Positions 52,159 to 58,420 of a DNA stretch of 64,000 nt are shown one piece after another (the stretch's first letter is position 1; every line of letters begins with the position of its first letter). Source of the stretch: Cellulomonas chitinilytica (GTDB lineage Bacteria; Actinomycetota; Actinomycetes; Actinomycetales; Cellulomonadaceae); contig NZ_BONK01000007.1 of assembly GCF_016862675.1 (NCBI RefSeq), forward strand, positions 62,001 through 126,000, read 5' to 3'. The translations under genes and the position numbers were made by a program. Below the pieces are notes generated by a model. It was given only the letters and a program-made list of their open reading frames with translations, was not told the DNA's origin and did not search any database.

Positions 52159-53724
52159 ATGCCTTCAACGAAGAAGCCAGCGAACGCGGATCTCGACAAC
52201 AGCCTGTACCCACCCCGGCTCGACAAGCTCGTCCTCCCCGACGAGCGGATGGCGGGGGCGGGCCCCGACTACAGCGCGATCCTCGAGACCATCTGCGGGG
52301 CGACCGACGACTCGCAGCCCGTCGAGCAGTACGACGGCACCCTGGGTGTGACGGTGGCGTTCGTGAACGCGCACCAGGCCCCTGCCGTGCAGGTCCAGTG
52401 GAACAGCAACCTGGCGGCGGTGTTCACGAACCCCGGCGACGTCTCGGGCGTCCGGTGGGGCAGCGGGACGATGATCGGCCCGGACCTGTTCCTCACGTGC
52501 GGCCACCTGTTCGACCAGGACCCGAACGGCTGGACGATCCCGCGCCAGAACGGCACGTCGAGCGCGATCACGCCGCAGCAGGCCGCGCAGCAGATGCACC
52601 TGAACTTCAACTACCAGGTGGACTCCGGCGGCGTGCTGCAGACCGAGGTCAGCTACCCGATCACCCAGCTGCTCGAGTACCGGCTCGGCGGCCTCGACAT
52701 GGCGCTGTGCCGCATCGGCGGCAGCCCCGGCAACACCTACGGGTGGACGGAGTTCGGCACGACGAACGCGGCCGTGGGGGACATGCTCGCGATCATCGGG
52801 CACCCTGCGGGCCAGCCGAAGCGGATCGAGGCGGGCCCGGCGACGAGCATCGTCGGCTCGACGATCGGCTACAACGACATCGACACCCTGGGCGGCAACT
52901 CGGGCTCGGGCATCCTGCAGGCGTCGACCGGGCGGGTCGTCGGCGTGCACACCAACGGCGGCTGCAACCCGTCGGGCACGGGGCAGAACACGGGCACCGC
53001 GATCGCGGCGATCTTCGCGGCGTCCCCGACGCTGCAGGCCACGACGCCGAGCTCCAGCACGGGCCTGGGCAGCGACTTCACGGGGACACCGCTCGCGACG
53101 GACATCGGCGGCACGCTCCTCGGCCAGGACACGGTCAAGGCGACGGACACCGGCATCCTCCAGGACGTCGCGACGCCGCTCGCGCAGGACATCCACGCGA
53201 CCATCAAGGCCCAGGACGTCGTGGCGACCCTCAAGGCGGCGGACAGCCACACGATCCAGGACCAGATCGCGACGCTGTTCCAGGCGGACACGCACACGGT
53301 CGCGGACACCGTCACGAACATCGCGCTCGACAACATCGGCACCCCGGTCGCGCAGGACCTCGCCACCACGATCGCCGCCGACCAGCCGGGCACGGTGATC
53401 GTCGCCGACCAGCCGGGAACACCCATCGCGGCCGACACGGGCCTCGCCGACCAGCCGGGCACGTTCGCGGCTGCCGACGACCCGGGCTTCGACCCGGGCA
53501 CGATCGTCAACCCGGTCGTCAACCCCGTCTTCCCGGGCCTGTCCGGCCTGCTCGGCGGGGGTGCCCGCCCGTTCGTCCAGGCCGGCCCGTACACGCCGGT
53601 CGACGAGGGCATCCAGGCCACGCACCCGGTGCTCGCCGAGCTCGAGGCGCTCATCGCCACGCAGACGCAGGTCCTGGCCTCGCTGCAGGCGCTGTACCAG
53701 CTGATCGCGTCCGGCGAGGTCTGA
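52159..53724 (+). CDS. Trypsin-like serine protease fused to a TxxxxD-repeat tail (candidate graspetide precursor)
   Basis: A 521-residue protein without signal peptide. Residues about 60-285 form a chymotrypsin-fold protease with His116 (LTCGHLF), Asp180 (GGLDMALC) and Ser248 (GGNSGSGI). Residues 310-440 are a chain of 17 units: fifteen T-x4-D, one S-x4-D (363-368) and one T-x3-D (427-431), e.g. T319-D324, T339-D344, T395-D400 and T421-D426, separated by 0 to 3 residues. The end (441-521) has Gly/Pro-rich turns and a helical tail. Start ATG 52159 has GGGAG upstream. A graspetide ligase forms esters between Thr/Ser hydroxyls and Asp/Glu carboxylates, and such a gene starts 7 nt downstream. 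The alternative is an unmodified solenoid. The protease fold is seen; the precursor role is inferred. Confidence 0.8.
   Translation: MPSTKKPANADLDNSLYPPRLDKLVLPDERMAGAGPDYSAILETICGATDDSQPVEQYDGTLGVTVAFVNAHQAPAVQVQWNSNLAAVFTNPGDVSGVRWGSGTMIGPDLFLTCGHLFDQDPNGWTIPRQNGTSSAITPQQAAQQMHLNFNYQVDSGGVLQTEVSYPITQLLEYRLGGLDMALCRIGGSPGNTYGWTEFGTTNAAVGDMLAIIGHPAGQPKRIEAGPATSIVGSTIGYNDIDTLGGNSGSGILQASTGRVVGVHTNGGCNPSGTGQNTGTAIAAIFAASPTLQATTPSSSTGLGSDFTGTPLATDIGGTLLGQDTVKATDTGILQDVATPLAQDIHATIKAQDVVATLKAADSHTIQDQIATLFQADTHTVADTVTNIALDNIGTPVAQDLATTIAADQPGTVIVADQPGTPIAADTGLADQPGTFAAADDPGFDPGTIVNPVVNPVFPGLSGLLGGGARPFVQAGPYTPVDEGIQATHPVLAELEALIATQTQVLASLQALYQLIASGEV
53080..53480 (+). repeat. Coding repeat array for TxxxxD units
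   Basis: The DNA encoding residues 308-440 of the protease fusion shows repeats of an ACG-N12-GAC type (Thr, four residues, Asp), including three QPG-T-x4-D copies near the end (53.38-53.48 kb). Copies are diverged at DNA level, so this is old or selected protein-level repetition rather than a recent tandem duplication. Confidence 0.7.
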
Positions 53725-53731
53725 GGCCGAC

Positions 53732-54700
53732 GTGATCGGCATCGTCTCCCACCCGGACGACCTGCACACGACGGAGGTGACCCGGCACCTGGACCGTGCA
53801 GGTGCCGGGCACCACCTCGTGGACACCTCCCGCGTGCCCACCGCGACCACGCTCACCACCCGTCAGCTCCCTGACGGCACGTGGACCGGCACGTGGGAGG
53901 GGTTCGACCTCGCCGAGCTGCACGCCATGTGGTGGCGGCGCCCGCAGCCGTTCGTCCTGCACGACGAGGTCACCCGGCCGCAGGACCGGCAGTTCGCGAT
54001 CGGCGAGTGCGCCGCGATGGTCGCGGGCATCTGGTCGTGCGTCGACGCGGAGTGGGTCAACGAGCCGGACCGTGACGAGGCGGCGTCCCGCAAGATGTGG
54101 CAGCTGCAGCTCGCCTCCCGAGCGGGTCTGCGGGTGCCGCGCACGCTCATGACGAACGACCCGGACGAGGCCCGCGCCTTCGTCGCCGCCGAGCGCGGTG
54201 CGGTGATCTTCAAGTCGTTCTCGGCGACCCCGACGACGTGGCGGGAGACCCGCCCGGTCCGCGACGTCGACCTGGGCCTGATGGACCAGGTCCGGTACGC
54301 GCCGGTGATCTTCCAGGAGCTCGTGCCGGGCGGCCGGGACATCCGGGCGACAGTCGTGGGCGACGAGGTGTTCGCCGCGGAGATCCGGGCCGACCAGTCG
54401 GCCTACGAGTTCGACTTCCGCATCGACTCCGCGCACGCGCCGATCTCCGAGTACCGGCTGCCCGAGCCGGTGCAGGAACGGCTCCTGGCGGTCATGCGTC
54501 GGCTGGGCCTGCGGTACGGCGCGGCCGACTTCCGGGTGGCCCCGGACGGCGACCACGTGTTCCTCGAGGTCAACCCGGCCGGGCAGTGGCTGTTCGTCGA
54601 GTACGCGACGGGCCAGCCGATCGCGGCCGCGCTCGCCGACCTCCTCGTGCGGCTGGACCGTGCGCGGTCGGGCACCCGGGCCGGCGCGTTATTCGCGTGA
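53732..54700 (+). CDS. ATP-grasp ligase, MvdC/MvdD-like (graspetide macrocyclase)
   Basis: A 322-residue ATP-grasp enzyme. N-terminal recognition-domain motif MWWRRP (residues 66-71) corresponds to the W-[YW]-R-R-P of microviridin-type ligases. ATP-grasp elements: Lys161 in VIFKSF, FQELVPGGRDIRATVVGDEVFAAEI, ADFRV (Asp267) and FLEVNPAGQWLFVE (Glu279, Asn281) before TGQPIAAALADLL, which is the C-terminal signature of MvdC/MvdD. This family forms omega-ester or omega-amide bonds in peptides. GTG 53732 is 7 nt after the protease-fusion stop, so the two are co-translated. A RimK-like glutamate ligase is the alternative. It ends 32 nt before rsgA. Confidence 0.85.
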   Translation: MIGIVSHPDDLHTTEVTRHLDRAGAGHHLVDTSRVPTATTLTTRQLPDGTWTGTWEGFDLAELHAMWWRRPQPFVLHDEVTRPQDRQFAIGECAAMVAGIWSCVDAEWVNEPDRDEAASRKMWQLQLASRAGLRVPRTLMTNDPDEARAFVAAERGAVIFKSFSATPTTWRETRPVRDVDLGLMDQVRYAPVIFQELVPGGRDIRATVVGDEVFAAEIRADQSAYEFDFRIDSAHAPISEYRLPEPVQERLLAVMRRLGLRYGAADFRVAPDGDHVFLEVNPAGQWLFVEYATGQPIAAALADLLVRLDRARSGTRAGALFA

Positions 54701-56676: not shown

Positions 56677-56995
56677 GGGTGCGGAGTCTGGCACGACGGC
56701 GCTCGTCGACGGGTCGGTGTCCGGCGCGCGAGGGGGTGGTGGGGGCCGCGCGGAAGCGCATCGACGACGCCGGACGGGCTACTAAACGTTTCAGTTCGGA
56801 GCGAACCCTCGCCCTCGGCGCGGTCGGTCGGGTTTCCTCGACGGGTCCGGGTCGTGCCTTCGGCCGCCCGACGTCCCCGCCGGTCACGGACGACCTGCGG
56901 TGCCGTCGGCCCGGACGCCGTCCCGAGCACCCGGCACCGCCCGACCCGGCGCCACGCCACCCCCGGCACCGCGCCGACCACCGAGGAGAGCCCGC
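56677..56995. other. Divergent control region of lipoprotein and cellulase genes
   Basis: No gene is seen in these 319 nt. Most of it is GC-rich, but one AT-rich spot at 56782-56791 carries a LacI-type operator core. It should hold the cellulase promoter and the ribosome site GAGGAGAG at 56983-56990. Confidence 0.6.
56784..56791. promoter_or_regulatory. LacI-family operator core
   Basis: AAACGTTT, a palindrome with central CG, is the usual core of LacI/GalR-family sites. It stands in a GC-rich context 204 nt before the cellulase ATG, a likely place for sugar-responsive control. Confidence 0.4.
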
Positions 56996-58420
56996 ATGTC
57001 CACCCGCAGAAACGTCATCGCGCTGCTCTCGGCAGCCGCGGTCGCCGTGGCCGGCTTCACCGCCGCCGCGTCGGCCCAGGCCGCGCCCGGCTGCAAGGTC
57101 GACTACACCGTCACCAACCAGTGGAACACCGGCTTCGGCGCCGCCGTGAACATCACGAACCTCGGCGACCCGATCACGTCGTGGAAGGTCGAGTGGACCT
57201 TCGGGGCGGGCCAGACGATCCAGCAGCTCTGGAACGGCGCCGTGACGACGAGCGGCTCGAAGGTGACGGTGTCGAACCTGTCGTGGAACGGGTCGCTCGC
57301 CAAGAACGCGTCGACCGGCTTCGGGTTCAACGGCGGCTGGAGCGGGTCCAACCCGGTGCCGACGTCGTTCAGCCTCAACGGGACCGTCTGCACCGGCGTC
57401 GTCACGACGCCGACCAGCACCCCCACGCTCACCCCGACCCCCACTCCCACCCCGACGGTGACACCGACCGTGACCCCGACGCCGACCCCCACGCCGACCC
57501 CGACCCCGACGCCGACGCCGACCCCCACGCCGACGCCGACCCCCACCCCGACGCCGACGCCGACCCCCACGCCCACGCCGGCGTCGGGCTTCTACGTCGA
57601 CACCAAGACGCAGGCGTACGCCGCCTGGCAGTCGGCCACGGGCACCAACAAGGACCTGCTCGCGAAGATCGCCCTCAACCCCGCGTCGTACTGGGTGGGC
57701 AACTGGTCCGACGCGTCCCACGCCCAGCAGGAGGTCGCCGACTACACCTCCCGGGCGCAGGCCGCCGGCAAGACGGGCATCCTCACCGTGTACGCCATCC
57801 CGGGCCGTGACTGCGGCTCGTACTCCGGCGGCGGCGTCGCGACCAGCGAGTACGCGAAGTGGATCGACACCATCGCGGCCGGCATCAAGGGCAACCCGTA
57901 CGTCGTCCTCGAGCCCGACGCCCTCGCCCAGCTCGGCGACTGCAGCGGCCAGGGCGACCGGGTCGGCTTCCTCCAGTACGCCGCGAAGGCGCTGACCCTG
58001 GCCGGCGGCCGTGTCTACATCGACGCGGGCCACTCGTCCTGGCTCTCGGTCGACACGGCGGTCAGCCGCCTCAACCAGGTCGGCTTCCAGTACGTCGTCG
58101 GCTTCGCGCTCAACACGTCGAACTACCAGACGACCGAGGCCACCAAGTCCTACGGCCAGCAGATCAGCCAGCGCCTCGGCGGCAAGAAGTTCGTCATCGA
58201 CACGTCCCGCAACGGCAACGGCTCGAACGGCGAGTGGTGCAACCCCCGCGGCCGCGCCCTCGGCGAGCGGTCCACGGTCGTGAACGACGGCACCGGGCTC
58301 GACGCCCTCCTGTGGGTCAAGCTGCCCGGCGAGTCGGACGGCACCTGCAACGGCGGCCCGACGGCCGGCGCCTGGTTCAACGACATCGCCCTGGAGCTCG
58401 CGCGCAACGCGAAGTGGTGA
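56996..58420 (+). CDS. Secreted GH6 cellulase with CBM2 and Pro-Thr linker
   Basis: A 474-residue endoglucanase of the Cellulomonas CenA type. Signal peptide 1-30 (ends AQAA|PGC), CBM2 32-133 with Cys33-Cys132 and surface Trp43, Trp79 and Trp97, Pro-Thr linker about 139-195, then GH6. The GH6 active site is seen in IPGRDCGSYSGGG (catalytic Asp) and VVLEPDALAQLGDC (acid Asp), with CNPRGRALG near the end. It hydrolyses internal beta-1,4-glucosidic bonds, inverting the anomeric carbon. The N-terminal CBM and linker order matches CenA rather than exo-acting relatives. ATG 56996 has GAGGAGAG 6 nt upstream. Followed by a strong hairpin. Confidence 0.95.
   Translation: MSTRRNVIALLSAAAVAVAGFTAAASAQAAPGCKVDYTVTNQWNTGFGAAVNITNLGDPITSWKVEWTFGAGQTIQQLWNGAVTTSGSKVTVSNLSWNGSLAKNASTGFGFNGGWSGSNPVPTSFSLNGTVCTGVVTTPTSTPTLTPTPTPTPTVTPTVTPTPTPTPTPTPTPTPTPTPTPTPTPTPTPTPTPTPASGFYVDTKTQAYAAWQSATGTNKDLLAKIALNPASYWVGNWSDASHAQQEVADYTSRAQAAGKTGILTVYAIPGRDCGSYSGGGVATSEYAKWIDTIAAGIKGNPYVVLEPDALAQLGDCSGQGDRVGFLQYAAKALTLAGGRVYIDAGHSSWLSVDTAVSRLNQVGFQYVVGFALNTSNYQTTEATKSYGQQISQRLGGKKFVIDTSRNGNGSNGEWCNPRGRALGERSTVVNDGTGLDALLWVKLPGESDGTCNGGPTAGAWFNDIALELARNAKW
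57417..57583 (+). repeat. Pro-Thr linker repeat
   Basis: Alternating CCG/CCC-ACG/ACC hexanucleotide units encode about 25 Pro-Thr steps between CBM2 and GH6. Such tracts vary in length between strains and are glycosylated in Cellulomonas cellulases. Confidence 0.85.

Follow-up and report, generated by a model that had tools for sequence, protein, structure and literature searches.

A candidate graspetide-like system in Cellulomonas chitinilytica in which a protease with a repeat tail and a C-terminal module may itself be the precursor

The window analysed here is a stretch of 64,000 bases of Cellulomonas chitinilytica (contig NZ_BONK01000007.1, positions 62,001 to 126,000), and the system in question consists of two genes on one shared strand, 7 bases apart, which encode a trypsin-like protease with a long repeat tail and an ATP-grasp ligase of 322 amino acids (Table 1). 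An earlier reading of the DNA letters, the original prediction, had placed a candidate graspetide, or omega-ester peptide, system here, with protease and precursor as one protein and no short precursor beside the ligase. The coordinates of the open reading frames bear out the two adjoining genes, and both ligase motifs that had been singled out, MWWRRP and FLEVNPAGQWLFVE, lie where they had been placed. Nor is a short precursor evident: the gap between the genes leaves little room, the sole frame of at least 20 amino acids confined near the gap in the 144 bases upstream has 26 amino acids, lies on the opposite strand and overlaps the protease start, and downstream of the ligase the longer frames already cross the end of the ligase gene, with no separate short gene evident. 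The possibility of a distinct short precursor next to the window ligase was therefore rejected.

Table 1. Features of the two-gene locus, in positions of the window
Feature	Residues	Position	Strand	Remarks
Putative precursor protein: trypsin-like protease, repeat tail and C-terminal recognition module	521 amino acids	52159..53724	+	
Trypsin_2 domain	101-263	52459..52947	+	Pfam E 1.8e-14; H116, D180, S248 invariant
Tail	299-452	53053..53514	+	16 T-x4-D pairs, predicted disordered; proposed core and ring-formation sites
RPFVQA motif	470-475	53566..53583	+	Start of the C-terminal module; P471, F472 invariant in 19 aligned proteins
C-terminal helix	489-520	53623..53718	+	Module's second half, proposed as follower that binds the ligase
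ATP-grasp ligase, MvdC/MvdD (graspetide synthetase) type, own subfamily	322 amino acids	53732..54700	+	Pfam, NCBIfam and solved-chain matches
MWWRRP ligase motif	66-71	53927..53944	+	Ligase alignment
FLEVNPAGQWLFVE ligase motif	277-290	54560..54601	+	Ligase alignment

The ligase matches the MvdD pre-ATP-grasp domain of Pfam (PF21068) with 28 bits, the cut-off being 27, together with a RimK-like ATP-grasp domain, and along its full length it is similar to solved chains that bear the names ATP grasp ligase, AMdnB and CdnC, with a best E of 2.3e-40, or 2.4e-60 in a profile search; we take the solved chains 5ig8, 5ig9 and 7drm to be MdnB, MdnC and PsnB. Residues W67, W68, R69, R70, E279 and N281 are invariant in 12 aligned ligases, the window's included. 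Since the protein scores under the curated level of every matching NCBIfam family (best TIGR04187, 248 against 350 bits), it forms a distinct subfamily; the MvdC/MvdD-like type that had been assigned to it stands, but it is neither MvdC nor MvdD itself. Its closest named relative among the matches listed is from a Cellulomonas metagenome-assembled genome (MAG), at 82%.

In an AlphaFold2 model of the larger protein the protease domain is folded (blocks mostly at 64-90 on the predicted local distance difference test, pLDDT), residues 299-498 lie nearly all below 50, and a helix follows at the C-terminus. The catalytic triad is intact in all 19 aligned trypsin-type members. The tail described in the original prediction as a long Thr/Asp repeat is confirmed by counting: its 16 T-x4-D pairs compare with 3.1 expected (z 8.4), the top of 2000 shuffles reaches 9, and all the other T-to-D spacings between x1 and x11 stay at z 1.3 or below. 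What that prediction overlooked is a conserved module behind the tail, which typically begins with a PF[VIA][LQ]xTPHH-like or PF[VIA][LQ]x[TG][PG] form and ends in a helix; its P and F are the only invariant residues in 57 aligned copies. The idea of a one-protein precursor is otherwise largely upheld by the comparisons that follow.

Close relatives were sought in a sample of 200 genomes of the family, where the ligase occurs at E<=1e-20 in 31 genomes, at 33 places. An enzyme-tail gene lies upstream at 22 of these, 14 of them trypsin-type, one of which, in a fragmented draft, has an odd junction (L006/L035), and 8 astacin-type. All 14 places with the closest ligases (about 55-100% identity) have a protease-tail gene directly upstream, a genome comparison that argues for precursor and protease being one protein. 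Conversely, the trypsin-type domain (E<=1e-8) is found in 15 of the 200 genomes, 14 times adjoining the ligase and once in a copy cut by a contig end, and apart from that copy never without the ligase. At the 8 astacin-type places ligase identity is 39-49% and the enzyme is a zinc metalloprotease unrelated to the trypsin type; in one of them (L046) the end of the tail is in a different, overlapping reading frame from the astacin part, which suggests a frameshift in that copy. The ligases of the remaining 11 places are more distant or partly matched, and no enzyme-tail gene lies directly upstream at the 8 whose surroundings were fetched. Within the clade, close ligases were not seen beside an unrelated short precursor, and the repeat was nowhere lost where the ligase was kept. 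Beyond it, ligases of about 33-37% identity can adjoin ordinary short precursors, for example tgmA next to tgmB, and the window genome itself has a second, distant ligase (35% identity; L054, G000:C4:203000-216000), one of the 11, which together with a 98-amino-acid gene upstream resembles an ordinary graspetide pair. A natural precursor-ligase fusion in L068/L035 was considered and is not taken as evidence because the joined frame has neither the C-terminal helix nor the start of the ligase, and the draft is fragmented.

A wider pattern scan with one genome per species, in which the best 80 of 476 ligase relatives were retained, found a C-terminal module at most 200 bases upstream on the same strand in 72 of the 80 loci, with a median gap of 18 bases. 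The 8 misses comprise two loci near a contig edge (L086, L116), the odd junction noted above (L068) and five that are divergent by eye: L096, an astacin with a K/D tail, L100 and L105, described below, L114, with a motif at the very end, and L123. When 74 of the 92 precursor and companion frames, near-copies dropped, were run against Pfam, they matched astacin (19), M43 (17), Trypsin_2 (16), M28 (7), subtilase (5) and tyrosinase (1), some frames matching more than one related family. The tails are carried by four peptidase families of three unrelated folds, namely trypsin-like, subtilisin, astacin and M43 (the last two both metzincins, as we assume), and also by a tyrosinase, whose domain replaces the protease at L093:4295-5848 ahead of TLKFxDD repeats and a PFVLATPHH module. 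The precursors of L100, L102, L105 and L114 matched no Pfam family; a small N-terminal domain that L102, L105 and L114 may have in common with the short precursors L143, L144 and L053 shows no more than 16-29% identity. In L100 and L105 the motif sits in mid-tail with repeats flanking it; such repeats on both sides of the PF motif, seen in L102 as well, are perhaps an older form. By their record titles, many of them MAGs, the ligase hosts include Actinobacteria, Proteobacteria, Acidobacteria, Planctomycetes, Chloroflexi and Myxococcales, with one Nitrososphaerales record. A quick tree built from 102 ligases unites the trypsin-type members in a single group (SH-aLRT, the Shimodaira-Hasegawa-like approximate likelihood-ratio test, 92) and the enzyme class changes 10 times in total over the rows of known class, although long branches and many open forks limit its reading; around an orphan ligase in the astacin-type group (L198, around G424:C1:2225420) no enzyme-tail gene was found nearby.

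The tails themselves diverge greatly in sequence and yet keep their donor-acceptor spacing. Taking the best of 66 combinations, 57 of 63 tails have a spacing at z>=5; among 63 control stretches, cut from upstream parts of these proteins and handled alike, 3 do. The 63 tails are what remains after dropping the seven M28 companions, near-copies and frames too short or without the PF motif, and since the three high controls have long repeats the tail probably extends into them. The best spacings are K-x4-D (21), T-x4-D (17), T-x2-E (6), K-x3-D (4) and others (9), while the repeat types of the clade include T-x4-D, K-x3-D, K-x4-D/E and TLKFxDD; in period-4 KDxP tails the exact partner residue cannot be told. 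Even within the trypsin-type class, where close actinobacterial tails use T-x4-D, those of L081, L083 and L085 use lysine. A forward test on plasmid records, 21 of which have a match and 4 of which were opened, gave as best match Burkholderia stagnalis L204, with an M43 peptidase (Pfam E 8.9e-16) beside the ligase, 6 T-x4-D pairs over the 110 residues that precede the motif (against 1.2 expected; top of 2000 shuffles 6) and a C-terminus of PFVLSTPHHSMAW plus helix that matches the module at E 7.9e-12. With lysine tails on trypsin-type enzymes and T-x4-D on this M43 peptidase, donor chemistry and enzyme seem to be swapped independently. Thus a Thr/Asp tail as substrate, as first put forward, fits the window and its close relatives but is too narrow for a clade with lysine tails and other enzyme families.

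The module can be followed across the enzyme classes. With a profile of 24 trypsin-type modules, 13 of the 28 of astacin type are detected at E<=1e-3 (best 2.1e-8); a profile of 22 astacin-type modules detects 8 of the 26 of trypsin type, and the M43-type profile picks up 1 of 28 astacin-type and 3 of 26 trypsin-type modules; frames that had not been preselected are matched as well. The combined profile excludes six seeds (L141, L044, L045, L047, L105 and L114). Searching the 200 family genomes with the module at E<=1e-3, which misses 8 of 22 known family places and is hence not exhaustive, gave 15 places, 14 of them adjoining the ligase; the match at the fifteenth (G103) spans model positions 19-63 only, that is, past PF. 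Among 396 genomes of the phylum both matches that cover PF (G000, which is the window genome, and G277) adjoin the ligase and four others begin past PF, so that in both samples the PF form is found only beside the ligase. As coiled coils yield weak false matches without PF and the seeds had been picked by PF, the strength of the module lies in the cross-family scores and the co-occurrence. A loose motif, Phhx(1,2)h, was also tried (it occurs in 32 of 57 modules and in 98 of 1826 background stretches, and with stricter hydrophobic letters in 4 of 57 modules) and set aside, its enrichment being circular because the modules had been chosen by the PF pattern.

From sequence comparison we consider it likely that the two genes form a graspetide-like system in which the protease itself is the precursor, its C-terminus acting as a follower and its tail being closed into rings, an interpretation that is supported at the genome level. 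Graspetide synthetases phosphorylate an acidic side chain, which a Ser, Thr or Lys side chain then attacks, and K-x3-D is a proven isopeptide ring in corallotide (PMC13097080); a leader moved behind the core by engineering still guides the synthetase ThfB, at a lower rate (PMC13003496). By the same chemistry the ligase of our system would bind its precursor through the C-terminal PF motif and helix, which would serve as a naturally occurring follower instead of a leader at the N-terminus, phosphorylate Asp/Glu side chains of the tail using ATP, and join each to a nearby Thr hydroxyl as an ester or, in other members, to a Lys amine as an amide. A floppy tail would thereby turn into a series of small rings; the window protein could gain as many as about 16, one per T-x4-D pair, with a loss of 18 Da apiece.

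Enzymes of these kinds are ordinarily secreted or held under tight control. A crude hydrophobicity check reveals no signal peptide in the window protease, and no strong N-terminal hydrophobic stretch stood out in the 92 precursor and companion frames (highest 15-residue mean 1.99), the start codons of which are uncertain. A small YscW-like gene, on either strand, accompanies the enzyme in all 28 astacin-type loci of the tree set (L048-L052, L084, L091, L092, L096, L098, L103, L112, L132 and L136 are among the astacin-type loci that have it) and was not found in any of the 41 loci of the trypsin, M43, S8 or tyrosinase type, several of which are known only as short stretches; it was likewise not found in the stretch of the window that was searched. 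The copy of L096 matches PF09619 with E 4.8e-4, just under the curated cut-off, and the gene might encode a dedicated inhibitor or chaperone of the astacin-type enzyme. Because such enzymes would do harm in the cytoplasm and have no evident signal peptide, and also because of the extra YscW-like gene in astacin-type loci, we speculate, with less confidence than for the rings, that the ringed tail stays on the enzyme and controls it through latency, tethering or stability. The exchange of unrelated enzymes on a single tail-and-tag system points strongly to a tail that serves the enzyme. The chances seem to us evenly balanced that a ligase guided by the follower laces enzyme tails into rings and that the tail then acts on the enzyme, for example as a latency lock; enzymes and ring chemistry would in that case have been swapped in evolution while ligase and follower were kept, in a widespread and modular system.

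Modelled as a read-through fusion, the module of L065 and its ligase reach a mean pLDDT of 81.5, and the block with RPFVQ, at 73, is an ordered island between two stretches below 50, comparable blocks of the lone window precursor being at 30 and 37; this hints that the PF motif may dock on the ligase, though the comparison is of two different proteins and alignments, uses a read-through fusion and consists of confidence values only. Several observations weigh against these proposals. The ligases that made up the query of the wider scan had already been seen to lie beside such genes, and the module profile was seeded by 79 frames from a PF-pattern search near the ligase. Tail conservation, 0.88 for T and D against 0.40 for the residues between them (65 of 65 pairs), drops to 0.51 against 0.38 (58 of 79 pairs) when the alignment is barred from using T and D. 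Most graspetide-type ligases come without the enzyme-tail set-up: of 21 phylum genomes with a ligase at E<=1e-40, only G000 and G277 show the PF module, and L145, a ligase inside the astacin group, has neither module nor astacin motif within about 8 kb on each side. The module profile scores five conventional short precursors no better than shuffles, and the idea that the PF module is related to conventional leaders was set aside as unproven. Finally, RimK-type ATP-grasp ligases attach amino acids to proteins rather than close rings.

That last activity is the basis of a reading in which the ligase decorates tail side chains with free amino acids or some other small molecule and forms no rings. 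The RimK-like domain match agrees with it, but the best full-length matches are graspetide-type ligases, and one-sided addition does not need the fixed donor-acceptor pairing of 57 of 63 tails, so that we regard it as improbable. The most serious competitor, possible if clearly the weaker choice, keeps the rings and makes the protease domain a built-in maturation enzyme that frees its own ringed tail as a secreted multi-ring peptide, in the manner of a ribosomally synthesized and post-translationally modified peptide (RiPP) with a cis-acting protease. The intact triad suits this, as does the dedicated protease freeing a microviridin core that was identified only lately (PMC13039773); it is harder to reconcile with a tyrosinase in the same place, with precursors that match no Pfam family (L102, L105, L114), with tails on four peptidase families and with the lack of a recurring exporter, ABC-type ATPase frames turning up, in varying positions, in at least 6 of the 65 loci, among the 16 largest groups listed.

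If instead the peptidases only processed other, unlinked precursors on which the ligase acts, or gave resistance, the conserved tails and module would be left unexplained, the PF form of the module would have no reason to keep to the ligase in two genome samples, and a tyrosinase could hardly replace the peptidase. We hold this to be highly unlikely, even though two publications lean that way, one for loci without a predicted precursor (PMC8939145) and one, under maturation or resistance, for protease-neighbour groups, group 32 included (PMC13097080). Less likely still, the tail and PF module might be a docking or export signal with the ligase riding along. The absence of a strong N-terminal hydrophobic stretch in the crude check means that another exit route is needed if the proteins leave the cell, which favours such a signal; tails that vary greatly in sequence while keeping donor-acceptor spacing do not, nor does a PF module found only beside the ligase.

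Set against known systems, the proposed enzyme precursor shares with graspetides, microviridin and plesiocin among them, an ATP-grasp ligase of MvdC/MvdD type, here of a distinct subfamily, and Ser/Thr/Lys donors (Thr/Lys for those two) with Asp/Glu acceptors at set spacing. It differs in that a 521-residue enzyme fusion takes the place of the short precursor beside the ligase and the conserved element is C-terminal, with the enzyme at the N-terminus, whereas microviridin and plesiocin have short precursors with an N-terminal leader and released peptide products. The association of ligase and peptidase is itself already published, read as maturation or resistance (PMC8939145, PMC13097080). Branch 7 of Makarova et al. 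2022, with branch 8, likewise has MvdC/D-like ligases beside unrelated peptidase families and no short precursor; according to these authors no precursor is predicted for these branches, it is perhaps encoded elsewhere, and the peptidases would cut other proteins (PMC8939145), while here the peptidase gene would carry core and recognition module. A YscW-like gene, as named for branch 7, lies in our astacin-type loci and is missing from the stretches of the window's trypsin-type subclade, and from this trait a correspondence of branch and clade may be surmised. Group 32 of Carter et al. 2026 may be likened to the clade for its diverse neighbouring proteases, described as perhaps serving maturation or resistance; it differs in that their set requires a precursor peptide identified by RODEO (PMC13097080). 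Corallotide, of group 15, has a large precursor with repeated K-x3-D, each closed by an isopeptide, at the spacing of the Cellulomonas astacin-type tails L084, L090 and L091, but the accessible part of that paper gives its precursor a helical N-terminal part, describes no enzyme in it and has an oxygenase act afterwards (PMC13097080). The engineered ThfA with a C-terminal leader also has its recognition element behind the core, in a construct called unnatural by its authors (PMC13003496), where ours would be natural and widespread. The original prediction knew of no described example of the layout; among the matches listed no title or abstract opening presents the enzyme as precursor, though full texts or supplements may mention it.

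If the proposal of an enzyme precursor is true, it supplies substrates for the published peptidase-linked ligase branches that lack a precursor, carries graspetide chemistry beyond small peptides to enzymes of full size, and provides a natural C-terminal recognition tag for such ligases of a kind only lately built by protein engineers.

Besides the YscW-like gene, other recurring neighbours were mostly shadow frames and were discarded. A second enzyme gene of M28 type lies about 2 kb upstream of the ligase in L118, L120, L124, L131, L133, L134 and L138 (the Pfam assignment is shown for L131, and seven members match M28). These companions show neither PF module nor repeats; their C-terminal helix (HYQALFAQYARL) resembles that of the M43 precursors. 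Further along the window, at 56900-58420, lies what by eye from the list of open reading frames we take to be a secreted protein resembling cellulases, with a long Pro-Thr linker.

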